DNA of 64,000 nt, taken from a virus. Under the pieces are notes generated by a model, which was not told the DNA's origin, made no database searches, and saw only the letters and a list, made by a program, of their open reading frames with translations. Of this stretch, positions 45,169-64,000 are shown one piece after another. The translations under genes were made by a program, and so were the position numbers. The stretch is taken from the IMG/VR virus record IMGVR_UViG_3300008120_000061, positions 1 to 64,000 of that record. One strand, given 5' to 3'. The stretch's first letter is position 1, and every line of letters starts with the position of its first letter.

Positions 45169-45194
45169 CTATCCGCCCCCTCAAGAGCGGATAG
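45169..45194 (-). terminator. Hairpin at the end of the SbcC-like gene, upstream of the reductase
   Basis: Minus strand stem CTATCCGC / GCGGATAG (8 bp) with a loop containing CTTGAGGGG. The SbcC stop codon TGA is in the loop. It is followed by ATTCTTTTAT, a weak U-run. It may attenuate transcription into, or protect the 5' end of, the reductase message. Confidence 0.55.
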
Positions 45195-47010
45195 TGCTTA
45201 TATTATTTGTTTTCTCAATCTCTATCCGTGGTATTAGAGGGTGAGAGTAGTCATGTGATATTAAAAACACATTTAAGTCTTTTTCTTCTTGTAGCACCTC
45301 GAAAAGACGTTCTTTACCAGTTTCGTCTAGTACGCCTGTTATTTCGTCTAGAAATAGTAGGTTTATACTTTTTCCACCTATTTTTGAAAGTGTACCTCTA
45401 ACAGCTAACAATACAGAAGTTTGTACTCTAGAAAATTCTCCGCCTGAAAGAGACTCTATACTAACTTCTTCACCGTTATTAATTACTACAATGTTTAACT
45501 TATCACCTGTTAGTCTAAATAGGACTTGAAACTGTCCATCGCTTAGAAGCGCTAGATAATAATTAATACTCTCTTCAAGTTGTTTAGCCACATTTTCAAG
45601 TTTGTAGGCAACTATTCCAGAAGTAGAGAAAGCTTTTCTTAATATAGTTAAGTTACTTATCTCTTCTTGAATAATAACTATATCATTTTTTATTAGCTCT
45701 TGTCTAGCTTTAAAATCTCTAATTTGCTCTTTTAGGGCATCTATCTTAGCATTTCTGATTTTTACGCTATCGTTGTAAGTTATAGCTTCGTCTCTAGTTT
45801 TCTTTTGAGATTCGTATTTATTTTTTAACTCTCTTAACTTATTTGATATATTATTAAAATCTGGATATTCTTTAGGTATGCTAATATCAATCAACTGAGA
45901 TAGCTGAGTGAATCTATCTATAGCCTTTTGATTATCGTCATAAGCTTTTTTCTCTGCCTTATTCTTAGTTACTTTAGAGTTTAGTCTTTCAATTACTTTA
46001 TTTCTAGCAATCATGGACGTATCTAAGTCAGCTATTTCAGCAGCTAGTGCAGCGCTTAACTGAGTAGCCTTAGAGTTATCAATTGCTTGTTTACACGCGT
46101 AGCAATGGTCAGACGTATCTAAAGCTTTAATATCCTTTACAGCTTTGGCTTTTTGCGATTCTTCTTTATATACTAAGCTTTTTTCTTCTTCTAAAACTTT
46201 TACAATCTCAGTATCTAGCTCTGTATAAGTCATACCAATATCAAACTTTAAAACTTGTTGTTCTTGTATATACAGATTATTTTTATCAATTTTAGTGCAT
46301 ATAGACTTTTGTTCATTAATTTCGGATTGTAACTTATCTATTTCAGGTAATATTGATTCATCTAAGTTTGGAACTTCAATCAACTCAGCTCTTTCGGGCA
46401 ATTGATTCTGAGATAGGAACTGTTGAACGGTCTTAAGTTCGCCATTCTTACCAGCTAGTTCTTTTTCTTTAGCGCTGTTAAGAGTTTTTAGATTATCACC
46501 AATATCTAAGTACTTAGATAGATTAAATAGATTAACTAAGAATTTTTTTCTATTCGTATCCGTAGCTTTTAGAAATTCTAATAAATCAGTGCTACTTTGA
46601 TATGTTAGTTGACTGAACGTTTCAAAATCTCTACCAATCGAATTAGATAGTTCTTTGTATGTATCTAAGACTTTATGCTCACTAACATCTCCCCCATTTT
46701 TTATAATAGATACTTTAGTAGATGCACCCTGTCTTTTAGAAGTCAATTCGTATTCGTCACTATCAATACTAAATACAAGCTTAGCTTCCCAGGTCTTTGC
46801 ATTATTGTATTTATTCAATATATCAGACTTCTTTAAACCTTTTACATTTTTATTGTACAGTAGTTCTTGAATTATTAATGCTAGAGAGCTTTTACCGCTG
46901 CCGTTAGGAGCGGCTAATTGTGTTATTTTATTTTGATTTAGTATTAGTTTATTATTAGGACCATAACTAAACATATTACTAAATTCTAGTGTCTTTAATA
47001 CTACGCCCAT
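45181..47010 (-). CDS. SbcC/Rad50-like recombination ATPase (T4 gp46-like)
   Basis: 609 residues. Walker A APNGSGKSS (34-42), long coiled coils on both sides of a zinc hook CYAC (303-306), ABC signature LSGGEFS (521-527) and Walker B NLLFLDE (550-556), then a His switch (LISHDYSH). It forms with the Mre11-like protein the nuclease complex that processes DNA ends for recombination-dependent replication. It is shorter than E. coli SbcC (about 1,050 residues) and similar to T4 gp46 (560). The start codon overlaps the stop of the Mre11-like gene. Confidence 0.93.
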   Translation of the reverse strand: MGVVLKTLEFSNMFSYGPNNKLILNQNKITQLAAPNGSGKSSLALIIQELLYNKNVKGLKKSDILNKYNNAKTWEAKLVFSIDSDEYELTSKRQGASTKVSIIKNGGDVSEHKVLDTYKELSNSIGRDFETFSQLTYQSSTDLLEFLKATDTNRKKFLVNLFNLSKYLDIGDNLKTLNSAKEKELAGKNGELKTVQQFLSQNQLPERAELIEVPNLDESILPEIDKLQSEINEQKSICTKIDKNNLYIQEQQVLKFDIGMTYTELDTEIVKVLEEEKSLVYKEESQKAKAVKDIKALDTSDHCYACKQAIDNSKATQLSAALAAEIADLDTSMIARNKVIERLNSKVTKNKAEKKAYDDNQKAIDRFTQLSQLIDISIPKEYPDFNNISNKLRELKNKYESQKKTRDEAITYNDSVKIRNAKIDALKEQIRDFKARQELIKNDIVIIQEEISNLTILRKAFSTSGIVAYKLENVAKQLEESINYYLALLSDGQFQVLFRLTGDKLNIVVINNGEEVSIESLSGGEFSRVQTSVLLAVRGTLSKIGGKSINLLFLDEITGVLDETGKERLFEVLQEEKDLNVFLISHDYSHPLIPRIEIEKTNNISTIRS

Positions 47011-47969
47011 TATTTTATACCTAATTTAGAGAATAGCTCAAGTACGCTATTTTTATTGTCTACTTTAATAAAATCTAAATACAAACTAAGCTCTTCTAAT
47101 AATGATTTATCAGTTAAGTCTAACACAGAGTTTTCTGAAGGCTTATCTGCAATCTTTTTATCAAGCAGTTCATGATTTTTAATTTTACTTAGATTATCTA
47201 TTGTACCAGTAACTTCATAGACGACATGGTGAAACTTATCTGCTACTAGTTCAGTTGAGACATCTACTGTTTTTCTTATAAGCTTAGGTAGTTCTAAATC
47301 TACAAATTCAATAGAATAGTTTTTATCGTCTATATAGTTTATAATATTTACACCATACGCTCTACTGGCATCCCTATCAAATGTTGTATTAACAGGGCTC
47401 CCAGAATAGTACACATTATAATCTTTATACCTATGATTAAAATGCAAATCGCCTAATAGTGTTAATGGCCAAGGCTTCAACTTATCAAAATCAAATTCTG
47501 CAGTGATGTGTGGAGGAACTTCTCCGCGAATATGAGTTATAAGTATATCGCCTTCTACATATGTAGGAATATTACCTACTTGCATTTCTCCATAAGGAAA
47601 CAGCTGAAAGCCTTGACCATTAATTACTGTTCTAGCGTTTTTTGTGTGTAGTATGAAGTTATTATTGTTAATAGCATTTTCAGTTTCAAAGTGTTCTAAA
47701 AATGTATTACCTTTTGTAGACGCTTCATGATTACCTGGTATTGCTAAAGTAGGCTTTGTAACAGAGTTAGCATAGCTTAGAAATACACATATTTCATCTG
47801 TCTCTGGTTTTTTGTCAAATATATCCCCAGCTAGAACAACAACATCACAGTCTTGTTCTAGTTCTAACAGTTTCTGAAATAGTGCATTGAATCTATTTAA
47901 TTGCCACTCATACGGAATCTTCTTTTTGTGAAGATTTATATGAATATCTGCTACATGTAGTATTTTCAT
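47010..47969 (-). CDS. SbcD/Mre11-like nuclease (T4 gp47-like)
   Basis: 319 residues. Calcineurin-like phosphoesterase motifs in order: D8/H10 (HVADIH), D49 (LAGDIF), GNHE (79-82), a His in DILITHIRGE, and LLGDLHFNHR. A capping domain follows (residues ~200-319). It cuts DNA with manganese and works with the Rad50-like partner encoded immediately downstream. It is coupled to the preceding glycosyltransferase gene (shared ATG/stop bases). Confidence 0.93.
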   Translation of the reverse strand: MKILHVADIHINLHKKKIPYEWQLNRFNALFQKLLELEQDCDVVVLAGDIFDKKPETDEICVFLSYANSVTKPTLAIPGNHEASTKGNTFLEHFETENAINNNNFILHTKNARTVINGQGFQLFPYGEMQVGNIPTYVEGDILITHIRGEVPPHITAEFDFDKLKPWPLTLLGDLHFNHRYKDYNVYYSGSPVNTTFDRDASRAYGVNIINYIDDKNYSIEFVDLELPKLIRKTVDVSTELVADKFHHVVYEVTGTIDNLSKIKNHELLDKKIADKPSENSVLDLTDKSLLEELSLYLDFIKVDNKNSVLELFSKLGIK

Positions 47970-48862
47970 TATGCCCTTTGCAATATGTTTGCTAGATTAC
48001 CTTCAAATGTATAACTACCTACGTGATTTAGTTTAGTATTTGGGTCTACCCAAATCTCTCCGCCCATACGTTGCCATCTACGGCAGAACGCATAGTCTTC
48101 TGATAGATAGCGCCTATCAGTAGGATCAATTTCAGTATCCCAGAAAGCATAGCAATGTGGGTTAAACTTTGGATCAATAGATGAGTCGTTTTTATAATGA
48201 AGATCTGGATATTCTTTTACCATGCGTTCAATAACTTCGCGCTTTACGATAAAGAAACCGGTAGAAGCATCTAAAACTTCTACAGCACCCATATGAGTTC
48301 TTACTCGTCTGGTTTCAGGATCAGCTTTTAGATTGATAGCATAATCAGCACCATAAGTAGCTATCTGATCAGTTTTTCCTGATTGTACTGCGTTTTGAAC
48401 TTGACCCCAGTTTATTGTTTTCTTAGGGTATGCTCCTGCAATAATATCTTTATCCATAGCAAGCATTCTAATAACTGCATCAGGATCAAATTCGATATCA
48501 GCATCAATAAACATTAGATGAGTGCAGCTTCTATCTTCTAAGAACATAGCTGTTAGAATATTTCTAGCACGAGTTACTAGACTCTCATTTCTTAATGTGG
48601 TAATTCTAAAACGAATTCCATGCTGCATAAGAACTTGAGACATTCTGAACATACTTAAAAAGTATTGGTCAGTTACAGCTCCACCATAGCATGGAGTTGC
48701 AAAAAAGATATTCATTTTCCTTAAAAAATTCATATCAATAGTTACTTTATCCCCATCAATAGAGCTAAATCCAGCAGGTAGCTGGTTAGTATCAGACGGA
48801 GTAGTCGGGGCTCTTTCAAGCCCCGAATTTGCTGCTAAATCTTTTAAGGATTTCTTACTCAT
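47969..48862 (-). CDS. GT-A-fold glycosyltransferase
   Basis: 297 residues. After a ~48-residue polar lead, the fold begins MNIFFATPCYGGAVTDQYF, with LVTRARNILTAMFLE and a DxD metal-nucleotide site FIDADIEFD (residues about 118-126). The GFFIVKREVIERM and SEDYAFCRRWQRMGGEIWVDP segments and LNHVGSYTFEG complete the pattern. It should transfer a sugar from a nucleotide donor; the acceptor is unknown. It lies inside the recombination/SSB block and overlaps both neighbours, so it is expressed with DNA metabolism genes rather than with the virion genes. A GC hairpin falls in its first 20 codons. Confidence 0.8.
   Translation of the reverse strand: MSKKSLKDLAANSGLERAPTTPSDTNQLPAGFSSIDGDKVTIDMNFLRKMNIFFATPCYGGAVTDQYFLSMFRMSQVLMQHGIRFRITTLRNESLVTRARNILTAMFLEDRSCTHLMFIDADIEFDPDAVIRMLAMDKDIIAGAYPKKTINWGQVQNAVQSGKTDQIATYGADYAINLKADPETRRVRTHMGAVEVLDASTGFFIVKREVIERMVKEYPDLHYKNDSSIDPKFNPHCYAFWDTEIDPTDRRYLSEDYAFCRRWQRMGGEIWVDPNTKLNHVGSYTFEGNLANILQRA
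48806..48825 (-). terminator. GC-rich hairpin inside the 5' end of the glycosyltransferase gene
   Basis: A perfect 7-bp stem CGGGGCT / AGCCCCG with 6-nt loop, 34-53 nt after the stop of the SSB-like gene and within codons ~13-19 of the next gene. No U-run follows. It may reduce read-through from the highly needed SSB gene or slow translation initiation of the glycosyltransferase. Confidence 0.4.
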
Positions 48863-49512
48863 AGATCTTCCATTCCCTCAGTGCTATTAAGATCTCCTGC
48901 AACTTCTTCTGTGAAGTAAGTAGTGTTCTTCAGTAGCCATTCTTTTTGTTCTTCGTAAGTTTGGCGCTTGAAAATAGTATCAAGGCTAAACAGTTCCATA
49001 TCTTTTTCATCTTTAGTCAAGGGTATGGTATTGCGACTAGGCATAACTGTATATTTTACGTTTTGTGGTTGTGGCCCAGTTTTTTCACGTTTAATCGTAA
49101 TATCGTAGCCATTATCAGGATCAGCAGGGCTACCATAGTCGGGGTTTGTAGCATAGTCTACCAATTGCTTATAGATAGTAGTTTTAAGATCCAATAGCTT
49201 AGGCTTGCCATCTTTTCTGTCGATTACGTTACAGATATAAGCAAATTGAGGCTTTTCTGAGTAGATATAATCAGGCAATTCTTTAATAGGATCTCTGCTA
49301 GAATTAAATTGCTCAGTCTCTCTATCGAAGCTCAAGCATTCAAGAGGATATTTTTTACCTTCATTTGTTACTACCCAATAAACATAACGAGGCATAACAG
49401 GTCCGACGAATCGTACTCTTGTTTCAGCTCCGTCAATACGAATTCTTTCAATATCGCGTGAGTTGTTAGATTGTGCTTGTGGTTTTTTAAGTTGTGTCCA
49501 GTCTCTTCCCAT
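48859..49512 (-). CDS. Single-stranded DNA-binding protein, gp32-like
   Basis: 217 residues. The N-terminal segment is basic and polar (DWTQLKKPQAQSNNSRDIERI). The central part has OB-fold-like strands (ETRVRFVGPVMPRYVYWVV, PQFAYICNVIDRKDGKPKLLDL, YDITIKREKTG) and the residue order of T4 gp32-like cores. The C-terminus is acidic (EEVAGDLNSTEGMEDL), as in SSBs that recruit replication proteins. The zinc-binding Cys/His set of T4 gp32 is not seen. Position among SbcCD, UvsW-like and Pol A genes supports the role. Confidence 0.62.
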   Translation of the reverse strand: MGRDWTQLKKPQAQSNNSRDIERIRIDGAETRVRFVGPVMPRYVYWVVTNEGKKYPLECLSFDRETEQFNSSRDPIKELPDYIYSEKPQFAYICNVIDRKDGKPKLLDLKTTIYKQLVDYATNPDYGSPADPDNGYDITIKREKTGPQPQNVKYTVMPSRNTIPLTKDEKDMELFSLDTIFKRQTYEEQKEWLLKNTTYFTEEVAGDLNSTEGMEDL

Positions 49513-49514
49513 AT

Positions 49515-49946
49515 TTAGTTCTCCAGTGGAAATGTGATTTTATCTTTGATTTTTCTTATCAAAGGGTTTGTGTGGTATTGTGGTTCTACGTAGTGTTCAG
49601 GTATCCAGTTGTTTTTATTTACTATAGATCTCTGACTTAAAATATATAAATAATCGCTTTTTTCTTTAGCTGTAAATCTCATGTGTAAAAAAGAACAATC
49701 ACGTATATAGCTTTGTGGTTCAATTGTTTTGTAGTGAGAGAATACTCCAGTCCTATAAACTCCTATATATCCATAGTTAACCAAAGTACTCGGCATTTTA
49801 GTTAGTATTAGCTTTTTGCGTAATAACTCTAAACTACCAGATAATTGTTTTTTAGTTCCTATACATAGGGCGAATATCAGAATAAGCTGCGATTCTGGTA
49901 CTGTTGTTATAGAGTTTATCTCACACCAATTGTATTGTACTACCAT
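49515..49946 (-). CDS. Hypothetical protein
   Basis: 143 residues with an N-terminal hydrophobic stretch (ITTVPESQLILIFALCIG), later basic and aromatic segments (YGYIGVYRTGVFSHYKTI, SYIRDCSFLHMRFTAKEK) and IPEHYVEPQYHTNPL. No family recognised. It stops 2 nt before the SSB-like start and follows the TPR glycosyltransferase gene by 19 nt, so it is in the same operon. A DNA-metabolism accessory role would be a guess from position only. Confidence 0.5.
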   Translation of the reverse strand: MVVQYNWCEINSITTVPESQLILIFALCIGTKKQLSGSLELLRKKLILTKMPSTLVNYGYIGVYRTGVFSHYKTIEPQSYIRDCSFLHMRFTAKEKSDYLYILSQRSIVNKNNWIPEHYVEPQYHTNPLIRKIKDKITFPLEN

Positions 49947-49965
49947 AATATAATTTTAAATAGCA

Positions 49966-51642
49966 TTAGTCAATATTAAAGTCACTATTAAATACTGTTT
50001 TAATTTCCTGACCTAATTGCTCAAATACTGAATTCCAATCTCTTAATTGTTTTTGTCTAATATTAGTAATAGATGGATACCAAGGGCTATCTTTTCTATC
50101 TAATAGCCATCTCCAATCAGGAGAGAAGGCGTGAAGTACGAATGTCTTAAGATTGGCGCTTCCTGCTAAATGAGCTATCATAGAATCTACAGTGACTATT
50201 ATCTTACATCTTTTTAGCAATACTAGAGTATCATCTAAATAATTTAGCTTATCACTGTGATAGTCTACATTTGGCAGCTTATTTATGTTTTCATCTTTAT
50301 CTAACTGTAGATTTAAAAACTTTAAGTTACTATGTTTAGTAATAAACTGTTCTATTAGCTGGGTAGGCACAGATCTGTTTATATCATTATGATGCGCTTT
50401 AGATCCTTGCCATAGTATACCAATATCATAGGTAGGTATTAACATCATATCACTGCTAATTTTATGTTCCTTAAAATTAGGTACAGCAGGGATAGTGTCA
50501 AGATTAGTTCTAAAAATTCTAGGTAAACTCATAAAAGATACTTTATAGGCATACTTAGAATAATCATTCTTATGCCATCCTCTAACATACGAGTCAGATA
50601 CGTAATCTTTATAGTTATTATGTAGAAACTCTCTAAAAGATTTTGGTTCAGACGTAGAGTCTTCCCATTTTTCATATTGATTAGCGATAACTTCTATATC
50701 AATGTTTGATGCTCTAGAATGTACTAATGGTAAATATCTTGAGAACTGCAACAAGTCGCCTAGCCCTTGTTCTTGATACACTAACAGCTTCTTATCTTCC
50801 GGTAGCTTTTCACCATTCCAATTAGGTATATTATAGTTTTTTAGTCCTTGAAATTGCTTAGTATTTAGTCTAAACTCACAAAGTCTCCAACCTTTTTGAA
50901 AATCACCTTTTAGCAGTTGTAACATACCTTCTTGATATAGAGAATCCATCACTACTTCATAGTCTTCTGATTTTTGAGCTTTTTGTGCGGCAATTATTGC
51001 TTCGTCAATTTTCAGTAAACTAGAATAGGCAGAGGCTAAGTTTTTATTAATTAAGGGATCACCCAGGTCAAACTCTTCAGCAGCTACTAATAGTGATACT
51101 GCTTCTGAATAGTTATGAGTAGATAACAGACTAGCACCCCACCCTGTTAATATATCTATTAACATACGTATATGCTCTTCTGAACTATTAAATTCAGCTT
51201 TTAGTAAATTATACGCTTTAGAAAAGTTATCAGTTGCTTTAAGTTGCTTACTAATATTACCTTTATACTTTTTACTTAGTACTAGTGCATAAGTTAGATA
51301 GTTTTGAGGTTTCTTAGAATTAAGTAGTAACAGTTGTTCTGCACATTCTTCTGCCTTACTAAACTCTCCAATTTCTAAATAGCTAGAAGCTAACCCAGTT
51401 ATTGCATCTTCATTTAACGGGTTCTTAATTAGGGACTGCTCAAAGCAGCTTATAGCCTTTACATGATCGTTCATAGCTTGAGCTTTCCAGCCTTTTAAAA
51501 AGAAAGAAAAATAGTGAATGCCACTCAGTTTTCTCTTAGTTAAATTAATAGCTTTATCGAAGCAACCGGTAGTAGCTAGGTCAATTGCAGCATTGATAGT
51601 TTCTAGTTCTCTAGTATTTCGTAATTTTGTTTTCTGTACCAT
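49966..51642 (-). CDS. TPR-repeat protein with GT9-like glycosyltransferase domain
   Basis: 558 residues. Residues ~10-250 are tetratricopeptide repeats (FSFFLKGWKAQAMNDHVKAISCFEQSL, ITGLASSYLEIGEFSKAEECAEQLL). The rest is a GT-B glycosyltransferase: LLVYQEQGLGDLLQFSRYLPLV, then DIGILWQGSKAHHNDINRSV, VTVDSMIAHLAGSANLKTFVL and PDWRWLLDRKDSPWYPS. This TPR plus GT9-fold arrangement occurs in bacterial and phage protein or surface glycosyltransferases; the TPR part usually binds a protein acceptor. It overlaps the helicase gene by 40 nt. A heptose donor is possible given the ADP-heptose genes, but is not shown by the sequence. Confidence 0.8.
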   Translation of the reverse strand: MVQKTKLRNTRELETINAAIDLATTGCFDKAINLTKRKLSGIHYFSFFLKGWKAQAMNDHVKAISCFEQSLIKNPLNEDAITGLASSYLEIGEFSKAEECAEQLLLLNSKKPQNYLTYALVLSKKYKGNISKQLKATDNFSKAYNLLKAEFNSSEEHIRMLIDILTGWGASLLSTHNYSEAVSLLVAAEEFDLGDPLINKNLASAYSSLLKIDEAIIAAQKAQKSEDYEVVMDSLYQEGMLQLLKGDFQKGWRLCEFRLNTKQFQGLKNYNIPNWNGEKLPEDKKLLVYQEQGLGDLLQFSRYLPLVHSRASNIDIEVIANQYEKWEDSTSEPKSFREFLHNNYKDYVSDSYVRGWHKNDYSKYAYKVSFMSLPRIFRTNLDTIPAVPNFKEHKISSDMMLIPTYDIGILWQGSKAHHNDINRSVPTQLIEQFITKHSNLKFLNLQLDKDENINKLPNVDYHSDKLNYLDDTLVLLKRCKIIVTVDSMIAHLAGSANLKTFVLHAFSPDWRWLLDRKDSPWYPSITNIRQKQLRDWNSVFEQLGQEIKTVFNSDFNID

Positions 51643-52913
51643 TCTAATCTGCCCTGTTGCTGATTATATACTATAGGGCCTGTTAGCCAAAAGTCTATAA
51701 TTAATGGATCTTTTTTATCTGGATGCCTTCTTAGAATACGCCCAATTCTTTGTTCTAGCTTTGCATAGTTATTTCCAGGGCAAGTGAACATAAGAGTATC
51801 TAATCTATGGCAACTAATACCTTCATCAAATATTTTTGTAGATAGTATGGCAGAATACTTAGTTCCTGCATTTTTTAGTATATCTTCTCTTTGAGCGTTC
51901 TTAGTACTACCAACTAATAATACACTATTAGGAATTCTAGACTGCAAATCTTCTAACATTTCTATGCGCTCACTTAATATAAGAGGGCATCTACCATGCG
52001 CTATTTTATCTCTTGCTACTTGAGCTATTAAATCTAAATAAGAAGTAGTCTTTGCTAGTTTAGTTAGTTGCCTAGTCCAGTCTCTGTTTGGATTTATTAC
52101 TCTAAAAGGTACTTGAGTTTGTACTAATTGTACTGATGCTGATAGCTTATCTACATTCTCTGCAATTATTCTATTTGGTCCGAAAAAGTCCGGTAATATA
52201 ATATGTAAGCCGTCTTTTCTAGTAGGAGTAGCACTTAGTGCAATCTTTACACGAGCATTTACCCCGTTTACAGCTCTGCTAAATGTTTCTGCTGGACACA
52301 AATGAGCTTCATCTACAAACAACACTTCAAACTGATCTAATACTTTATCTAGTCTAGTAAGCAAAGACTTATATATTGCTATTGTTATAGGCTTTATTGA
52401 TTCTTTACCGTCACCTATAAAACCTACTTCATCAACGTCTATCAATTCTTTTATAGCATCTAACCATTGGTATGCTAATAGTTTAGTATGACATATTATA
52501 ATAGTAGGTTTTTTATAATTCCCAATAAGATAAGTTCCTAAATAAGTCTTACCCCAGCCACAATCAGCTTTAATTAATCCGCTGTAAAGCTTGTTATTTT
52601 GTAATAGCTTATCTGCAACAGATTGTTGCTCAGCTCTTAGCCCACCTTTAAATGACCAGCTCTGTTTATCCGTGTTAGCTCTTAGATCTTCTAACTCTAG
52701 TATCTCTAGCTTATGCCAAGATCCACTGGGAACGCTACACATTCCAGTTTCTTCATCATACTCTAATGTAGAATAAAAGGTATCACCTAAATTATAGTTA
52801 AATAATACATATCTAAAGTCTTGAAAAGGAATATCTAATATATCGTCTCTATTAAAGTATATCTTATCAGAAATTGTAGCTTTACGTATTTTATATTTTA
52901 TCTTACTGTTCAT
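51603..52913 (-). CDS. SF2 DNA helicase, UvsW/RAD25-like
   Basis: 436 residues. After ~90 residues of N-terminal domain: GLRAEQQSVADKLL (Q-motif-like), Walker A ADCGWGKTY (117-125), DEAH (201-204), SATPTRKDG (227-235), then the second RecA domain with LVGSTKNAQREDIL, FDEGISCHRLDTLMF and motif VI QRIGRILRR. T4 UvsW and the Rad25/XPB group share this set. It remodels forks and R-loops during recombination-dependent replication. It shares the last base with the next gene's region and has the recombination genes downstream. Confidence 0.9.
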   Translation of the reverse strand: MNSKIKYKIRKATISDKIYFNRDDILDIPFQDFRYVLFNYNLGDTFYSTLEYDEETGMCSVPSGSWHKLEILELEDLRANTDKQSWSFKGGLRAEQQSVADKLLQNNKLYSGLIKADCGWGKTYLGTYLIGNYKKPTIIICHTKLLAYQWLDAIKELIDVDEVGFIGDGKESIKPITIAIYKSLLTRLDKVLDQFEVLFVDEAHLCPAETFSRAVNGVNARVKIALSATPTRKDGLHIILPDFFGPNRIIAENVDKLSASVQLVQTQVPFRVINPNRDWTRQLTKLAKTTSYLDLIAQVARDKIAHGRCPLILSERIEMLEDLQSRIPNSVLLVGSTKNAQREDILKNAGTKYSAILSTKIFDEGISCHRLDTLMFTCPGNNYAKLEQRIGRILRRHPDKKDPLIIDFWLTGPIVYNQQQGRLEWYRKQNYEILEN

Positions 52914-53419
52914 TATATATTTATTTCAGTAACATCCATTTTAAATGGTGTTACTTTGTATATCACCCATACTTTATCAATTTTTACTATTGTTAAATGT
53001 TGATTTAGTAGTTCTTTGCTATCAATTAGTTTTATAGGTAGTTCGAACGGATAGCTAACCGTAGGAACCCATACTGCATTTTTACTTACTTTAATTATTG
53101 GTAAGCTTTTAGATATAAATTTTTGTTTCTTACTTACGTCATATATCTTAGCTTTTGAATCTATCAGCCATTTTACAGGCTTATTAATCACATGAGTTAG
53201 ATTTAGACAGGTAGCATCAAAATTTATTTCATCAGACTTTACAGATAGATAGCGTTCTAGTACAGTCTTATTTCTGTCAAATCTGTCTATTATGTACCAG
53301 TCGTGAAATTCTCTTTTTTGTATTTGTATTGTATCAGTACCTATTTTATAATCAAAAGGTACTGAATACAATGCAAAAGCAGGAAACTTTATTCCATAAA
53401 ATTTACTTAGGTAACTCAT
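52913..53419 (-). CDS. Hypothetical protein between Pol A and helicase
   Basis: 168 residues, strand-rich with many Lys, Ile and Val, no recognised motif. Segments such as REFHDWYIIDRFDRNKTVLERYL and LTIVKIDKVWVIYKVTPF suggest a compact alpha/beta or beta protein. It overlaps the end of the Pol A gene by 17 nt and the helicase start by 1 nt, so it is translated as part of the replication operon. A polymerase- or helicase-associated role is only suggested by position. Confidence 0.5.
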   Translation of the reverse strand: MSYLSKFYGIKFPAFALYSVPFDYKIGTDTIQIQKREFHDWYIIDRFDRNKTVLERYLSVKSDEINFDATCLNLTHVINKPVKWLIDSKAKIYDVSKKQKFISKSLPIIKVSKNAVWVPTVSYPFELPIKLIDSKELLNQHLTIVKIDKVWVIYKVTPFKMDVTEINI

Positions 53420-55649
53420 ATTTACTTAATTCACCCCAAGAAGGGCCAGCTTCCACGTCTACGACAATTGGGCATCCTGTAATAAATACACCTCTGTCTT
53501 TTTGTAGATTGGTTACTAGTGTCTTGGCATATAAAGGCAATAGCTCATTCTTAACTTCAGCAACTACTGAGTCATGCACAGTAGCAAAAAGCTTAATATC
53601 ATCTTGAAGTTTATTCTCTTTTACCCAGTTTACAGTGTCAATCAACCCATAAATGTTAATATCGCTGGCAACACTCTGAATTAAGAAGTTTAGACCGCTG
53701 CGAGCGGCGTGAGCGGCAACGCCTTTATTATCAGATCCTACTTCTGGAAGTCTACGCTTTCTGCCGAATGCGCTATAAATAAAGTAGTTTGTTTCAATTG
53801 TAGAAAGACATGCGTCAATCCACTTGCGAAGGCTACTAGCTTCTCTAAAATACTTCTTAATAAAGTCTTTGGCTTCTTCCATAGTGATATTAGCAGTTTC
53901 ACTAATTTTAGAAGGACCAGCACCATACAAAATACCGAATGTAATAGCTTTAGAATACTGTCTCAAATCTGGATACAGATCTTTTACTTCGCCTACCGCA
54001 CAATCTAGCTTAAACATATTTTTAGCTACATAAGAGTGGAAGTCTAGTTTTTGAATAAAAGCCTGTTGTAGAAACTTATCGTTAGACAGTGCAGCTGCAA
54101 CATACACTTCGGCAGTACCTAAGTCGGCTTGAACAATACTATATCCTTCTCTAGCCTTAAAGATCTTTTTGATACCAGCATCTTTATCTCTAGGAAGATT
54201 CTGATAGTTAAGAACACCACTAGAACTTAAACGTCCAGAAGTAGTACCAGTAAGGTTAAAGCTCGAACGTAGACGAGAGTCGTTGTCCACTCCATCTTTA
54301 ATGTTTTTTAGATAGGTTTGACTTAGTTTAACTTTTTTACGAAGATCTAGAATTGCATCAGTAATAGGATGTTTAAGTTGTTCAAGTACTTCTGCGTCAG
54401 TACTAAAAGCACCTGTATCAGTCTTCTTAATAGGCTTTAGTTTTAGAATATCGAACAGCACTTGTCTGAGGTGGTACACACTATTAGGATTAAAAGTTTT
54501 ACCAGTAATCTCTTCAAACTCTTGAATAGCAGGATCAAATGCTAATTCATTCATAGTCTCTTCAATATCAATTCTATAATCTTGAATAAGATCGTCTAGA
54601 ATATCAATGCTAATAGGGCCACCATTCGACTCTAAGTGAATGATAGACATGATAGCAGGTTTCAGAAGATCATTATACAACGTAACAAAATTAGGATTCT
54701 TATCAATTATAGGCTTGAACTTTTTATATAGCTGCATAGTACCATCACCATCCTTACAGCCATAAGGTGCAAGAATTTCTGGCGGTAACATGCCATAGTT
54801 AAAATCTTCTAGTTTAACTTTGTGCTGTCTAGCCCAAGCTTTCTTATAATCATCTAGCTCTTTTTCATAGTCGCCTAGATCAGTATATTTCATAGCAAGT
54901 TGCTTAAGACCGTGAGTACCTACACTTTCGTCTAAGCAGTAATGCATTAACATGGTGTCTTCGAAGTCTGGAAACTCAAAACCATATTCATACCCAATAA
55001 ATTGAATATCGAACTTTGCGTTGTGAAAAACACACTTAGTGGTTTTGAAAAGTTCTTCAAACTCATCATAGTAATGCTCAATAATATGGGCGTCAGCATA
55101 TACGCCTTCATGAGGCGCTGTACTAAATACAAATCCTAGAATATTACCCTTTCTAGGGGATAGACTAGATGTTTCAGTATCGACAGAGATAACATCTGCT
55201 TGTTGTAGCTTTTTTAAGTAGGGCAGAAAATCTATTTCGTCTGTATAATGAGTATAAGACTTATTATGCACTAAAGGTTGCTCACCAGAAACAATACTGT
55301 TGAGCTTAGCAAAAGCTTTCTTAATATCATCCGCATACTGTGGCTTAATAAATACCATTCCAGGATCTAGAATAGGAATAAACTTTTCATTAAGTACGTG
55401 ACCATTATATTTCATAATACCTGTGACACCACAAGCATACTTTAGAGAGTCTCCGCCTACAGGGCAAATAATATCATACTGCTCAAAAATAGACATATCT
55501 AAATCTACGTCTTTTTTGAGAATTTTTTCTTTGGGTTCCGAACTTAGATAAACAACGTCAAATTTAATTTTATTGTTATATTCTTTTAAAACAGTTGGTA
55601 CAGCATTTTTTAATGGGGAAGGTAAGACTAGTAGAAATTTGTGTGTCAT
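53403..55649 (-). CDS. DNA polymerase A family with 3'-5' exonuclease and UDG-like N-terminal domain
   Basis: 748 residues. Residues 1-~115 resemble an inactive uracil-DNA-glycosylase-like fold (ICPVGGDSLKYACGV ... FIPILDPGMVFI). Exonuclease: D157/E159 (VDTET), FHNAKFD (208-214), YGCKDGDG (296-303). Polymerase: TGRLSSS and YQNLPRD (471-487), motif A ADLGTAE (508-514), motif B R563...K567...F571...Y575G (KAITFGILYG), motif C VHDS (691-694). F571 matches E. coli Phe762. There is no 5'-3' exonuclease; the FEN at 41354-42211 supplies it. Motif C is HDS instead of HDE. It is the main replicative polymerase and has its own promoter. Confidence 0.95.
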   Translation of the reverse strand: MTHKFLLVLPSPLKNAVPTVLKEYNNKIKFDVVYLSSEPKEKILKKDVDLDMSIFEQYDIICPVGGDSLKYACGVTGIMKYNGHVLNEKFIPILDPGMVFIKPQYADDIKKAFAKLNSIVSGEQPLVHNKSYTHYTDEIDFLPYLKKLQQADVISVDTETSSLSPRKGNILGFVFSTAPHEGVYADAHIIEHYYDEFEELFKTTKCVFHNAKFDIQFIGYEYGFEFPDFEDTMLMHYCLDESVGTHGLKQLAMKYTDLGDYEKELDDYKKAWARQHKVKLEDFNYGMLPPEILAPYGCKDGDGTMQLYKKFKPIIDKNPNFVTLYNDLLKPAIMSIIHLESNGGPISIDILDDLIQDYRIDIEETMNELAFDPAIQEFEEITGKTFNPNSVYHLRQVLFDILKLKPIKKTDTGAFSTDAEVLEQLKHPITDAILDLRKKVKLSQTYLKNIKDGVDNDSRLRSSFNLTGTTSGRLSSSGVLNYQNLPRDKDAGIKKIFKAREGYSIVQADLGTAEVYVAAALSNDKFLQQAFIQKLDFHSYVAKNMFKLDCAVGEVKDLYPDLRQYSKAITFGILYGAGPSKISETANITMEEAKDFIKKYFREASSLRKWIDACLSTIETNYFIYSAFGRKRRLPEVGSDNKGVAAHAARSGLNFLIQSVASDINIYGLIDTVNWVKENKLQDDIKLFATVHDSVVAEVKNELLPLYAKTLVTNLQKDRGVFITGCPIVVDVEAGPSWGELSKYELPK

Positions 55650-55713: not shown

Positions 55714-56601
55714 ATATAAATTATCTTCAATATTGCCTAAAAAGTGTTCAGCTATTTCTTTATTGAAACTACCTGGATCTAAACCATCAGTAAGAACAAT
55801 ATTATTGGTTTCTATATTTCTTTGTTCTAGTAGCTTTTCAATCTTAGCTGCCGCTTGTTTACCCGCAGAGTCGCCATCCATTAGTATGGTGACTTTTCTA
55901 CATCCATATTCATCTAGTAGTTTAGCCTTTTGAGCTGTAAAGTTTTGGGTGCCAAAGATACATAGGCTATTTGTATATCCTAAATCATGCAGTTTTAGCA
56001 CATCAAATAATCCTTCTACTAAGATTACATGTGAGAAGTCCGCTATTCTATCTAAGGGAAATAGAATATCACTCACAGATACTCCGGCTGGTTTTCTTAA
56101 ATATTTAGGCATACTAATAGAGCTGCTAAGAACTTTGTATCTGCCTTCTATGAATTTTAGTTTTTTGTGTTGATATATAGGTATGCAAGCATAATCACTC
56201 AACCCATTAGAGTCTGTGAAGAAAGCTCCAAAGTCTTTTAGAGTTTTTGCTCTAATACCTTTAAAATCATGACTCAAAGCAATTGTTGGCTCAGGCAGCC
56301 TAACCTCTCCTTGATATCTGATGTTATCTAGTTTATTCTTTAGCTTTTTTATTTTAAAAGACATTTTAGATGCAATTTGAAATGTGCTTTTAATTCCTAG
56401 CCCTTCCAAGAATTGTTGAGTATTTCCTCTATGTCCACATGCAAAGCAATGAAATACATTCTTTTCTAGATTTAGAGAAAGACTAGGATTAGAATCGACG
56501 TGCAAACCACTAAAACATCTTACAGTTAGTTCAGTAGGCTTATTAGGATTAACAACATAATCAATGCTGTTATCCTTTAGCACGTCTTCCATATTATCCA
56601 T
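55699..56601 (-). CDS. DnaG-type primase (zinc finger plus TOPRIM)
   Basis: 300 residues. The N-terminal zinc-binding domain has C29 and H34 (CFSGLH) and C52/C55 (FHCFACG), a CHC2-like arrangement. A basic, helix-rich linker follows. The TOPRIM core is VILVEGLFD (192-200, E196) and LMDGDSAGKQ (240-249, D242/D244). It makes RNA primers for lagging-strand synthesis. It is shorter than E. coli DnaG and lacks the C-terminal helicase-binding domain. It overlaps the cupin gene by 8 nt and is followed by the polymerase. Confidence 0.9.
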   Translation of the reverse strand: MDNMEDVLKDNSIDYVVNPNKPTELTVRCFSGLHVDSNPSLSLNLEKNVFHCFACGHRGNTQQFLEGLGIKSTFQIASKMSFKIKKLKNKLDNIRYQGEVRLPEPTIALSHDFKGIRAKTLKDFGAFFTDSNGLSDYACIPIYQHKKLKFIEGRYKVLSSSISMPKYLRKPAGVSVSDILFPLDRIADFSHVILVEGLFDVLKLHDLGYTNSLCIFGTQNFTAQKAKLLDEYGCRKVTILMDGDSAGKQAAAKIEKLLEQRNIETNNIVLTDGLDPGSFNKEIAEHFLGNIEDNLYLTNA

Positions 56602-56971
56602 TCTGATTATCTCCAGGCATCACTCTAAAGTTATCTTCTGCTGAATCTGCAGTACTAACTTCAATAATCTCACTATCATCTTCTAAAGCTATTAGCTGAT
56701 GCACTTGTAGAGGCATAATTCTGATAGAATCTCCAGTGCGAAGAGTCTGCTCAATGATACTGCCATTTTCAGTATTAATAAGTTTTAATGTGAATAATCC
56801 TTTTTGCACATACCATGTTTCATCTTTTTTATGGTGAAAGTGCATTGAAAACTTATTCCCAACTTTGTTAAAGTGAAGTATCTTTCCACAATATAAATCA
56901 TTAGTGGCAAAGATATACTCATACCCCCATCCCTTAGGAATATGACCGCTAAACCTCGTTACGCTTGACAT
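56594..56971 (-). CDS. Cupin, mannose-6-phosphate-isomerase/GMP-like sugar cupin
   Basis: 125 residues, a single cupin. KGWGYEYIFATNDLYCGKIL, then SMHFHHKKDETWYVQKG with HxHH...E metal ligands, TLRTGDSIRIMPLQVHQL with the late His, and a strand EIIEVST. This resembles the C-terminal domain of type II phosphomannose isomerases and related sugar-phosphate cupins. It is translated between the heptose kinase (23-nt overlap) and primase genes. A sugar-phosphate isomerase step connected with the heptose pathway is plausible, but known sedoheptulose-7-phosphate isomerase (GmhA) is a different fold. Confidence 0.68.
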   Translation of the reverse strand: MSSVTRFSGHIPKGWGYEYIFATNDLYCGKILHFNKVGNKFSMHFHHKKDETWYVQKGLFTLKLINTENGSIIEQTLRTGDSIRIMPLQVHQLIALEDDSEIIEVSTADSAEDNFRVMPGDNQNG

Positions 56972-57818
56972 AAGCTGTTCCTTTCTTTGTTACAGCTATT
57001 GCAGATACTTTAGTAGCAAATTCAATAGCTTTGTTTATCGTATTATTTTCATATAAAGAAGATGCCAGTGCTGCTAGAAAACTATCTCCAGCTCCCGTAA
57101 CATCTATTGCTTTAACAGAAAATGCAGAATACTCTTTATATAATCCTTTTTTAGTGGCAGTTACGCAACCCTCAGATCCTTTAGTTACTATGAGATTATC
57201 TACATTTAGTGCCTTTGCTGACTCTATTAGTAATTCTCTTGTAATAGTTGTTTCATTTGTCCAATCTAAAAATTCTTTTAAATTAGGTTTAAGTACGAAT
57301 GTATTTTTATATTTATCTAGATCTTTCTTAGGGTCTACTAATACTGGAATCTTTAATTCTACAGCAGCTTTAATAATACCATTAGGATTTATAATACTAC
57401 CCTTATTATAATCGCTTAGAACTATTATACTAGGTCTATTTTCTAGTACTTTATTAGCTAGTTGATTAGTATCACATTTTATGCTATCATCATAGTCTAT
57501 TCTAGATATATAAGCTCCATTACTATACAGTCTTACTTTAGTAATATCACTATCTGCATAATTTACTACGCTATCATAAGTTAACTGTTCTTCTTCTAAT
57601 AGCTTTGCTAAGATAGATTTATTACTAGTAAGGGCAGTAAATAGTTTTACCGGACTTCCTAAGTATTTTATGTTTAAAGCTGTATTACCAGCTCCACCTA
57701 GTTTATTTATAGTTTCATATACACTAACTACCGGGGCAGTATCGCACTCAGGAGACATACGAACACTGCTACCCAGCAGATATTTATCTAACATAATATC
57801 TCCAATAACTGCTATCAC
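56949..57818 (-). CDS. hldA: D-glycero-beta-D-manno-heptose-7-phosphate kinase (HldA / HldE N-domain-like)
   Basis: 289 residues, PfkB/ribokinase family. The start VIGDIMLDKYLLGSSVRMSPE and the GGAGN (41-45) segment are close to HldE kinase domains. VLSDYNKG, VDPKKD, LKPNLKEF and the anion-hole/catalytic DVTGAGDSF (239-247, D245) complete it. It phosphorylates heptose 7-phosphate to heptose 1,7-bisphosphate. The matching adenylyltransferase is at 2016-2432 and the epimerase at 1139-1888; the phosphatase and isomerase were not found. It is embedded between helicase (ATGA overlap) and primase genes, so it is expressed with replication genes. Confidence 0.87.
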   Translation of the reverse strand: MIAVIGDIMLDKYLLGSSVRMSPECDTAPVVSVYETINKLGGAGNTALNIKYLGSPVKLFTALTSNKSILAKLLEEEQLTYDSVVNYADSDITKVRLYSNGAYISRIDYDDSIKCDTNQLANKVLENRPSIIVLSDYNKGSIINPNGIIKAAVELKIPVLVDPKKDLDKYKNTFVLKPNLKEFLDWTNETTITRELLIESAKALNVDNLIVTKGSEGCVTATKKGLYKEYSAFSVKAIDVTGAGDSFLAALASSLYENNTINKAIEFATKVSAIAVTKKGTAYVKRNEV

Positions 57819-59191
57819 CCTAGATCACCTGCAAATTCTTTCTCATCATTTCCATATTTATTTAGTATCTTACCTTCTATAACTTTACTGCTTTCAGGTA
57901 CGATTTTTAGACATTCCCAATCCATGTGTACATTAAACTTCATGGATTTACCGTTACGAATCTTAGTAATTTCAAAAGGTAGAATACTTGGATCTTCGTT
58001 TAAATCTGCTGGCGTAAATCTAAAGCTGCGATCCGCAGAGTCAAGAACCCCTTTAGCAAATCTAGCTTCACCGCTAGCATCAATCTGATACGGAGAAACC
58101 ATCATAACTTTATACTTACGGCTAAGAGTTTTTAACTGGTCAGCAATGGCGATCTGGGATTTCCAATCCATTCTATCTTCTACTTTAACAATGTTAAGAT
58201 AGTCGATTACGCACATTTTTACATCATACTTTTTAGTCATAAGATTTAGATAGTGGTCAATCTTAGCTAAAGATAGATTAACATCATCTACAATATGGAA
58301 ACGCTTATCTTTAAACTTAGCTTTACCAGTTTTCAGCCCATAGTCAAACTCTTTTAGATTACCAGTTTTTAACAGATTAGCATACAGATCAGAAGCTTCT
58401 TCTGTAGCCTCATAGAATGTATCTAGTTTAGTTTTAGCTAACAACAGCTTATCAGTATTTGTTAGCTCGTTTTTAATGAATTTCATAAACGACACACCAG
58501 ACAGCATACTCATTAGTCGATAGTACACTTCAACATAACGCATCTCAATACTCATAAAGAGTACTGAGTTATTATTGCTTTCAAACTGATGTTTAGCTGT
58601 ATTGAGTGTGATAATAGACTTACCACTACCCCTACGACCTCCAAACATTATAAGCTCTTCTAAACCAAATCCACCGTTAGTAGCGTCGTACTCAGTAGAC
58701 AAGCCACTTGAATACATAATAAATTGTTCTTCACCTAAGAAAGAATCAATTGTTGCAACGTCAAATAGTTCCTCGCCTTCTGGCAGGAACTTATGTAGTT
58801 CTAGAATATGATTTTGTATACTATCAATTATTTCAATACGTTCTAGGTGTTCGAGCTGATCCATAAACTTATCTAGCCAGTTTATAGTTTCTTCCCTAAT
58901 AAAATAGTCTTGTAATTGGTCTGCAATAAATTGACTAGATAGATACTGTTCTTCAGGAGTATCTACATAGATCTGAGAAGATAAGTAGTCTTTAATATTC
59001 TCAATCTTCTGAGACTCGTAAAACTCTTGCATAGTGGGTATGCGCATATTCTTTTCGTAAAATTTAACAATCTTACGAAATATGATTAGATTAGTGTCGT
59101 TAAAAAACTTACTAACTAGCTTGTTATAAAAATCTGTACTCTGCGTAGACAATAACCTACGCAGAGCAATTTTTTGTATATCTACAGTCAT
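57815..59191 (-). CDS. Replicative DNA helicase, DnaB family
   Basis: 458 residues. Residues 1-~150 are a helical N-terminal domain (IPTMQEFYESQKI, QYLSSQFIADQLQDYF). The RecA-like motor has Walker A GGRRGSGKS (184-192), SVLFMSIEMRYVEVYYRLMSML, Walker B VKMCVIDYLNIV, the sensor MMVSPYQID and an Arg-rich loop FEITKIRNGK. It unwinds DNA at the phage fork. No helicase loader is recognised, so it may self-load or use the small DNA-binding proteins nearby. The stop overlaps the heptose kinase start (ATGA). Confidence 0.92.
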   Translation of the reverse strand: MTVDIQKIALRRLLSTQSTDFYNKLVSKFFNDTNLIIFRKIVKFYEKNMRIPTMQEFYESQKIENIKDYLSSQIYVDTPEEQYLSSQFIADQLQDYFIREETINWLDKFMDQLEHLERIEIIDSIQNHILELHKFLPEGEELFDVATIDSFLGEEQFIMYSSGLSTEYDATNGGFGLEELIMFGGRRGSGKSIITLNTAKHQFESNNNSVLFMSIEMRYVEVYYRLMSMLSGVSFMKFIKNELTNTDKLLLAKTKLDTFYEATEEASDLYANLLKTGNLKEFDYGLKTGKAKFKDKRFHIVDDVNLSLAKIDHYLNLMTKKYDVKMCVIDYLNIVKVEDRMDWKSQIAIADQLKTLSRKYKVMMVSPYQIDASGEARFAKGVLDSADRSFRFTPADLNEDPSILPFEITKIRNGKSMKFNVHMDWECLKIVPESSKVIEGKILNKYGNDEKEFAGDLG

Positions 59192-62458: not shown

Positions 62459-62763
62459 TTAATTTCTTCCTCGTCTGGTTTATTTACAATCCGATCTACT
62501 TTTTTTCTCCATAAATCAGTTATTAATTCTGATGCGTCACTTAGTAGATGCACCCAAGTATCTATATGCTCTTCAGTGACTGAAATTCCATTTGTAGTTC
62601 TTAACCACTCACCAGTATCCCCATCTTGATAATACTCTCTGGTGTGTACTCTAACTACCCCTCTCCACTTATTAACCGTAACCTTTATCGCTCTGTTCAC
62701 GCCTTTTTGTGGAGGTAAATCGCAAATAAATCCTAAATCATATTCTTCATCACTATCAGACAT
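62455..62763 (-). CDS. PC4-like transcriptional coactivator / ssDNA-binding protein
   Basis: 102 residues. RAIKVTVNKWRGVVRVHTREYYQDGDTGEW followed by TTNGISVTEEHIDTWVHLLSDA is the PC4 core: four beta-strands with basic residues and an amphipathic helix that dimerises and binds single-stranded DNA. The N-terminus is acidic (SDSDEEYD) as in eukaryotic PC4. It may act in transcription or replication of the phage. It overlaps the glycosyltransferase gene by 8 nt and is followed by the Myb-like gene. Confidence 0.8.
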   Translation of the reverse strand: MSDSDEEYDLGFICDLPPQKGVNRAIKVTVNKWRGVVRVHTREYYQDGDTGEWLRTTNGISVTEEHIDTWVHLLSDASELITDLWRKKVDRIVNKPDEEEIK

Positions 62764-63874
62764 GCTTACTCCTAACTGTACTAGAAGCGTTTGAAATTTT
62801 AGTCACAACTTCATAGTACTTATTACCAACTTCCGTCCAAGTATTTAATAACGATGTATCTACTGATATAGTTTTTAAGTTATTAATAACATAGTGAAGT
62901 TGTTTAGCTAGATCATTTGCGTCTGGTTCTAGCACCCATTTATGACCGCCCATTTGTGTCATTGCGTCTTCTGCTTTTAGACCAAAAATTTCATACATAT
63001 TTACTATTCGTTTAGAGCTAGCAATCTTAAAGTCTTTTACAAACTCATCAGTAGGTCCGCCGAAAGTTACTATAGGTACACATCCACAGGCCATAGCTTC
63101 CTGTACGTGCATACCAAAACCTTCACCTCTATAAGGATGAACTAGTACGTGCGCTTGTTTGTATAGCGCAGCCATTTCTTCTTCACTTCTAACACTATCA
63201 TCATATATAATATCTGCACATTTAGTTTTGTATTGCAGCTTTACAATATCTTCTTGAGTGTTAGACGCTCCATAAACTTGTGGAGTATCTTTAATAATTA
63301 GTTGAACTGGTGTACCTTGTTTAGTTATTTGACTCCATACACTCAGTAGTATGTCTAATCCTTTTCTAAATTGGTGACAACCTACATACAGTACTGTAAT
63401 TTTAGTGTTGTCTTTAGTGTTTGGTTTATTAAATATATCTGGATTGTATCCATTAGGAATAGAGACTACTCTTTGAGGATTAATCCCACTATTTAAATAT
63501 ACTTCTCTTGTCCATTCACTAGGAGTTATTAGCAAATCTGCAAATGTCTCAAATTTGTATTGCCACTCAAAAGGAACAGCCATGTATTCCCAAGGCTGAA
63601 TAAAAACAATTTTTGTGTTATTACCAACGGGCCAACGCCACATTGGAGGATAGGTATGCCTAATCTGAACATCAACACTATCGAGTGGTTTATTAACCAA
63701 GCTAGATATAGTTTGAGCATCGATTTTAGATAACTTATGGTCTGATGAATAGGTGTCGAGCGCAGAAATTGATAAGTTAACTTTATCTTTAAGCTGCAAA
63801 GCAATATTTCTATTTACAATAGACAGTGAATGGTTGTCAAACACTTTGCCGATTAGTTCTACATTAATTGCCAT
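62756..63874 (-). CDS. GT4-family glycosyltransferase
   Basis: 372 residues, GT-B fold. The N-terminal domain has VQIRHTYPPMWRWP, IVFIQPWEYMAVP and LLITPSEWTREVYLNSG. The donor-binding domain has VSIPNGYNPDIF, VLYVGCHQFRKGLDILL, LVHPYRGEGFGMHVQEAMACGCVPIV (E-x7-E site) and GGPTDEF. It uses a nucleotide sugar, acceptor unknown. It is the upstream member of the PC4/Myb-like gene set and overlaps the partial gene at the window edge by 11 nt. Confidence 0.9.
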   Translation of the reverse strand: MAINVELIGKVFDNHSLSIVNRNIALQLKDKVNLSISALDTYSSDHKLSKIDAQTISSLVNKPLDSVDVQIRHTYPPMWRWPVGNNTKIVFIQPWEYMAVPFEWQYKFETFADLLITPSEWTREVYLNSGINPQRVVSIPNGYNPDIFNKPNTKDNTKITVLYVGCHQFRKGLDILLSVWSQITKQGTPVQLIIKDTPQVYGASNTQEDIVKLQYKTKCADIIYDDSVRSEEEMAALYKQAHVLVHPYRGEGFGMHVQEAMACGCVPIVTFGGPTDEFVKDFKIASSKRIVNMYEIFGLKAEDAMTQMGGHKWVLEPDANDLAKQLHYVINNLKTISVDTSLLNTWTEVGNKYYEVVTKISNASSTVRSKHV

Positions 63875-64000
63875 ATAACAGCCTCGCTTCTTGCTTACAA
63901 TAACTATTTAGTTCGTCTTTATGCACTAGCTTTAGTGTTGGCCATTGCGGACCCATATTACTAGTTTTAAAATTAATCATATCTCTATAGTTAGTAGCGT
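63864..64000 (-). CDS. C-terminal part of an unidentified gene at the window edge
   Basis: The frame is open from the window edge to TAA 63866-63864. The residues end LHKDELNSYCKQEARLLYGN-like and contain MINFKTSNMGPQWPTLK. An ATG in frame near 63979 could be a start of a 38-residue peptide, or the gene may begin outside the window. It overlaps the GT4 gene start by 11 nt. No family recognised. Confidence 0.45.
   Translation of the reverse strand, partial: ATNYRDMINFKTSNMGPQWPTLKLVHKDELNSYCKQEARLLYGN

Follow-up and report, generated by a model that had tools for sequence, protein, structure and literature searches.

A GT-A glycosyltransferase gene fixed in the T5-like replication module of a phage and its aquatic relatives

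Gene layout of the replication block and the GT-A enzyme

The 64,000-nucleotide (nt) stretch analysed here (hereafter the window) is part of virus record IMGVR_UViG_3300008120_000061, which is 75,941 base pairs (bp) long and may be incomplete. The record is from an uncultured phage that has a T5-like replication module and a tail protein resembling lambda J, and the window carries two glycosyltransferase genes, one for a GT-A enzyme (GT-A) and one for a protein with TPR repeats and a GT-B domain (TPR-GT9). An earlier note on this DNA had placed both genes among those for a single-strand DNA-binding protein (SSB), the SbcCD nuclease and a helicase, overlapping or abutting the recombination genes. 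Positions, minus-strand orientation and overlaps were all confirmed (Table 1). In the direction of transcription the block runs DnaB, PfkB kinase, cupin, primase, family A DNA polymerase (PolA), o168, helicase, TPR-GT9, o143, SSB, GT-A, SbcD and SbcC, and from DnaB to SbcC no two neighbouring genes overlap by more than 40 nt or lie more than 49 nt apart. The identities of the gp32-like SSB, SbcD, SbcC, helicase, PolA, primase and DnaB are backed by both Pfam and PHROGs. Because the layout is this tight and a terminator-like hairpin lies at the SbcC end, the single transcript that the note had assumed for both glycosyltransferase genes and the replication genes is likely, as judged from layout. 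Separately, a 14-bp near-perfect inverted repeat, terminator-like on both strands, was seen within the opening codons of DnaB (59137-59168).

The GT-A protein matched phrog_1574, a family listed as 'unknown function', with E=3.5e-50. Gaps aside, residues R98, R100, D120, D122, K148, E255, D256 and H280 were invariant across 312 phage and cellular homologues. The AlphaFold model (predicted local distance difference test score, pLDDT, of 89.6) matched GT-A structures, the nearest solved ones being STIV A197, the best PDB match, and human LH3, a protein with glycosyltransferase domains. Profile match, DxD, ED and H residues and GT-A fold together place the protein in the family, and by its residues and model the enzyme looks active. 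The first ~25 residues were modelled with low confidence; a basic LS[DE]-type peptide opens the protein in 80 of 81 members of the clade. An NCBIfam search with GT-A returned no match, and phmmer queries with T4 agt and bgt found nothing in the window, GT-A included. Homology of GT-A to these two T4 enzymes was therefore rejected.

Table 1 Features of the replication block in the window.
Feature	Position	Strand	Remarks
SbcC end, terminator-like hairpin	45169..45194	-	match to consensus only
SbcC-like nuclease subunit	45181..47010	-	T5 D13 position
SbcD-like nuclease subunit	47010..47969	-	T5 D12 position; 1-nt overlap with GT-A
GT-A glycosyltransferase, 297 aa	47969..48862	-	phrog_1574; D120/D122, E255/D256 and H280 intact; core gene of the module
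gp32/D11-like SSB	48859..49512	-	4-nt overlap with GT-A; acidic C-terminal tip
o143, 143-aa open reading frame (ORF) between TPR-GT9 and SSB	49515..49946	-	position kept in relatives; fast evolving
TPR + GT-B (GT9-like) protein, 558 aa	49966..51642	-	SPINDLY/OGT/FlmG-type architecture; accessory gene, near subclade
Superfamily 2 helicase	51603..52913	-	T5 D10 position; 40-nt overlap with TPR-GT9 gene
PolA	53403..55649	-	T5-like
Cupin protein	56594..56971	-	found only in near subclade
PfkB kinase	56949..57818	-	closest to RfaE/HldE kinase domain; found only in near subclade

Core and accessory genes of the module

A homologue search baited with GT-A returned 80 loci in which SSB, SbcD or both adjoined the gene, a result biased by the choice of GT-A itself as bait. 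We therefore carried out an independent search baited with an SbcD alignment and counted the 81 loci with enough upstream sequence. GT-A was present upstream of SbcD in 79 of them and adjoined SSB in 77. The other two SbcD loci are uninformative, since SSB was also not found on those contigs. The gene order SSB-GT-A-SbcD is thus not due to chance. Among relatives GT-A was also the most conserved of the proteins compared, with a mean identity of 67-68% (SbcD 64%, PolA 63%, SSB 62%, helicase 57%, o143 38%), and its divergence correlated with that of PolA (r=0.93) and of SSB (r=0.925).

Many relatives have a variable insertion spot between GT-A and SbcD (L028-L082), occupied by genes for radical SAM and B12 radical SAM proteins, a 2-oxoglutarate (2OG) oxygenase, and FkbM-like and other methyltransferases. 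SSB and GT-A are almost never separated, despite these insertions on the SbcD side. GT-A is a core gene, fixed in the replication module of this phage and of many aquatic relatives. A contig filed in a metagenome-assembled genome of a 'Proteobacteria bacterium' (L253) looks like a replication-module piece of the same phage clade, with a GT-A 63% identical and neighbouring ORFs sized like SSB, SbcD and SbcC.

The second glycosyltransferase gene behaves differently. TPR-GT9 was present in 14 of the 81 SbcD-baited loci, and all relatives in which it was seen have a GT-A with 73% or more identity to that of the window; wherever both ends are visible in these, it overlaps the helicase gene by the same 40 nt. 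Its mean identity was 56% where GT-A averages 85%. Pfam detected its TPR repeats, and its match to the GT9 family (PF01075) scored 14.4 bits, below the gathering cut-off of 22, so that Pfam does not place it in that family. In its model (pLDDT 83) the best Foldseek matches were SPINDLY and OGT, with the TPR repeats driving much of the match. The protein has the architecture of OGT, SPY and FlmG, an N-terminal TPR array followed by a C-terminal GT-B-type domain. In Caulobacter FlmG the TPR half binds flagellins, and these cannot be glycosylated without the glycosyltransferase half (PMC7591256). By its model and by analogy, TPR-GT9 would most likely be a cytoplasmic protein O-glycosyltransferase that picks its protein with the TPR arm, and it does not count as evidence that DNA is glycosylated.

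The PfkB kinase gene, between those for DnaB and cupin, had been described in the earlier note as a heptose kinase. Its closest relative is indeed the RfaE/HldE kinase domain, but its TIGR02198 score of 198 bits falls below the equivalog cut-off of 345. The kinase and cupin genes have the same narrow near-subclade distribution as TPR-GT9, and all three genes look like later insertions. The note's placement of sugar transfer in the replication programme is well supported for GT-A, through its pairing with SSB, its co-divergence with polymerase and SSB and the clamp-side place of its family in T4-like phages (below), but not for these three genes, which were seen only in the closest subclade and of which TPR-GT9 diverges fast.

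One alternative would join all four genes in a heptose-based pathway, in which kinase and cupin make a donor that the GT9-like protein uses. GT9 is a heptosyltransferase family, the kinase resembles the HldE domain, and TPR-GT9, the kinase and the cupin share a subclade. That common distribution may, however, reflect a single gain; most relatives have GT-A without the other three genes, no complete ADP-heptose route was found among the scanned proteins, and the GT9 match lies under the Pfam cut-off. We regard such a pathway as very unlikely. Since GT-A is core and TPR-GT9 is a fast-diverging gene of the near subclade, treating the two glycosyltransferases as one system is unjustified; we rejected a common pathway and regard TPR-GT9 as a narrow accessory of another type.

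Further sugar genes were observed outside the block. A sugar cluster upstream of it (62756-64000, continuing to ~69.3 kb of the record; L002) encodes GT4, GT2-like and other glycosyltransferase-like proteins, a GalE-type epimerase and two methyltransferases, and a second epimerase gene is found at 1019-1888, near a tail fibre gene.

The GT-A family in other phages and its acceptor

The GT-A family is also fixed in a second phage group. Of 79 T4-like loci, 78 have the homologue directly before the gene for the sliding clamp, gp45, whose identity Pfam confirmed on one representative locus. Isolates with this arrangement include Cr30, DLP6, phiM12 and vB_OspM_OC. Genes for TET/JBP dioxygenases lie near the homologue in Cr30, DLP6 and 11 environmental loci, and a search baited with TET/JBP recovered GT-A in 27 of the 30 loci that reach the clamp. 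Ten other T4-like loci carry upstream an orthologue of T4 gp42, the dCMP hydroxymethylase (56-64% identity to gp42 where compared); gp42 orthologues and TET/JBP never occurred together in the T4-like loci (L093-L172). The DNA of DLP6 is listed as resistant to restriction enzymes in a review table (PMC8228603), and T4 itself has agt in the equivalent 45-46-47-55 block. In a third group, of small phages, the family is found near a RecT-like gene. At least two unrelated phage groups thus have this glycosyltransferase family, listed as 'unknown function', at a fixed place in their replication modules, and one of these groups is associated with hydroxymethyl pyrimidines.

Three further observations concern the T4-like loci. 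The gp42 orthologues co-occurred with a PF00145-like protein in 8 of 10 loci (Fisher p ~2e-5, a value that ignores the kinship of the sequences). The TET/JBP proteins (L417-L496; in DLP6, L087:3437-4780) end in SLExFF-type tails in 59 of 61 distinct sequences by a loose pattern; these resemble sliding-clamp-binding peptides, which suggests that DNA oxidation may be tethered to the clamp. The TET/JBP genes of Cr30 (KF301602.1 59353-60681) and DLP6 (KU682439.2 27179-28525) are annotated as SNF2 DNA repair genes, and their products match PF12851 above the cut-off.

The candidate acceptors for GT-A in this phage are DNA, which we favour, a replication protein and a glycan. Tentatively, we propose that GT-A acts on phage DNA or, failing that, on a replication protein. 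The enzyme would work during phage replication with a nucleotide-sugar donor and would move the sugar onto freshly replicated phage DNA, so as to protect or mark it. The 4-nt overlap of the GT-A and SSB genes probably couples translation of the two, and the basic N-terminal peptide may serve in docking, tethering GT-A to SSB or to the replisome. The presence of TET/JBP or dCMP hydroxymethylase beside T4-like family members lends indirect support, by analogy, to sugar on DNA, one of the two outcomes that the earlier note had considered.

Several results weigh against DNA as the acceptor. As that note had stated, no hydroxymethyl-pyrimidine enzyme was found: PF00303, PF12851 (TET/JBP) and PF00145 (C5-methylase) were all negative in the 75,941-bp record, which may be incomplete, and a phmmer query with T4 gp42 had no match in the window. 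TET/JBP was likewise not found in 19 relatives, whose contigs may be incomplete, and a PF00303 match occurred in one relative only, as a full-length thymidylate synthase. Half of the T4-like loci with GT-A and enough upstream sequence (15 of 30) show no hydroxymethylase nearby, and six T4-like loci with GT-A also have agt homologues. On the GT-A tree the clade of this phage is monophyletic (95/95) and groups with cellular homologues, not with the T4-like branch, although the root is unsure and several branches are long. The surroundings of these cellular homologues are not constant and include GT4, epimerase, OmpA and flagellar genes. Palindrome avoidance gave no discrimination, since modified T4 has values like those of this phage. 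With no acceptor-making enzyme found, sugar on DNA is unproven here.

A number of other ideas were set aside. ThyX is not favoured as the acceptor-making enzyme, having been seen only in the near subclade. A simple replacement of agt by GT-A was rejected on account of the six T4-like loci that have both. Palindrome avoidance was rejected as a sign of unprotected DNA because of the T4 values. Assigning a function from bacterial neighbours was dropped, as the contexts are mixed and without a constant neighbour.

A protein acceptor from the replication or recombination machinery (SSB, SbcCD or a nucleic-acid protein of the host) would account for the constant coupling of GT-A to SSB with no need of a base hydroxylase. 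The overlap with the SSB gene, its retention next to GT-A in 77 of 81 loci, the conserved basic GT-A peptide (80 of 81 members) and the acidic SSB tails all fit this, and LH3, the nearest human structural match, glycosylates hydroxylysine in protein. The fixed neighbour in T4-like phages is, however, the clamp and not SSB, so that DNA, rather than any single protein partner, is common to both phage groups, and a protein acceptor leaves the association with TET and gp42 unexplained. We judge a protein acceptor unlikely.

A glycan acceptor would mean that GT-A alters host or virion glycans early in infection, perhaps as a block to superinfection, with early expression following from the position of the gene in the operon; the earlier note had likewise considered an early change to the host surface. 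This fits the glycan and flagellar neighbours of the cellular homologues, the cyanophage ACG-2014f, whose homologue lies inside a sugar cluster, the phage's own cluster at ~62.8-69.3 kb, and the insertions of tailoring-type genes (radical SAM, 2OG oxygenase, methyltransferases) that follow GT-A in many relatives. Variability is the rule for glycan genes, though, whereas GT-A is the best conserved of the genes compared and fixed in place, and an unrelated phage group has its family at a constant site next to the clamp. We judge a glycan acceptor, too, unlikely.

Returning to our preferred reading, action on phage DNA, a bolder form of it is doubtful: GT-A would modify phage DNA (or SSB) without a pre-made hydroxymethyl pyrimidine, by an undescribed glycosylation chemistry spread over a large aquatic clade with T5-like modules. 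Were DNA glycosylation true, GT-A would represent a widespread means of protecting phage DNA, one that would bear on restriction, CRISPR and metagenome sequencing; were SSB or another replication protein the target, it would represent an unusual form of replisome control. The cultured carriers Cr30, DLP6, phiM12 and vB_OspM_OC make the acceptor question directly testable.

Comparison with known systems

One close likeness is to the phrog_1574 homologues of these four T4-like phages. They share with the enzyme of the window the GT-A family (tblastn identity 32-37%) and the catalytic residues, and are likewise fixed in a replication and recombination module. They differ in adjoining the sliding clamp instead of SSB, in having TET/JBP or gp42 nearby in some cases, and in carrying lysine-rich C-terminal tails in place of the basic N-terminal peptide of this clade. 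The T4 alpha- and beta-glucosyltransferases, which act on hydroxymethylcytosine (hmC) DNA, are comparable in that agt occupies an equivalent block, but have no sequence match to GT-A, and the T4 glucosyl-hmC system needs a dCMP hydroxymethylase of the thymidylate synthase fold, which was not found in this possibly incomplete record. Similarly, TET/JBP-linked DNA hypermodification shares the GT-A family with this phage through the TET-bearing T4-like phages, whereas no TET/JBP was found in this record or the 19 relatives.

The block itself corresponds to the T5-like D10-D11-D12-D13 module, with homologous proteins in the same order (polymerase, small ORF, helicase, small ORF, SSB, SbcD, SbcC, exonuclease). 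The T5-like phages PG07 and KEY differ from it in having no GT-A between D11 and D12. Finally, TPR-GT9 shares with FlmG, SPINDLY and OGT the N-terminal TPR and C-terminal GT-B-type domains, and differs from them in being encoded by a phage.

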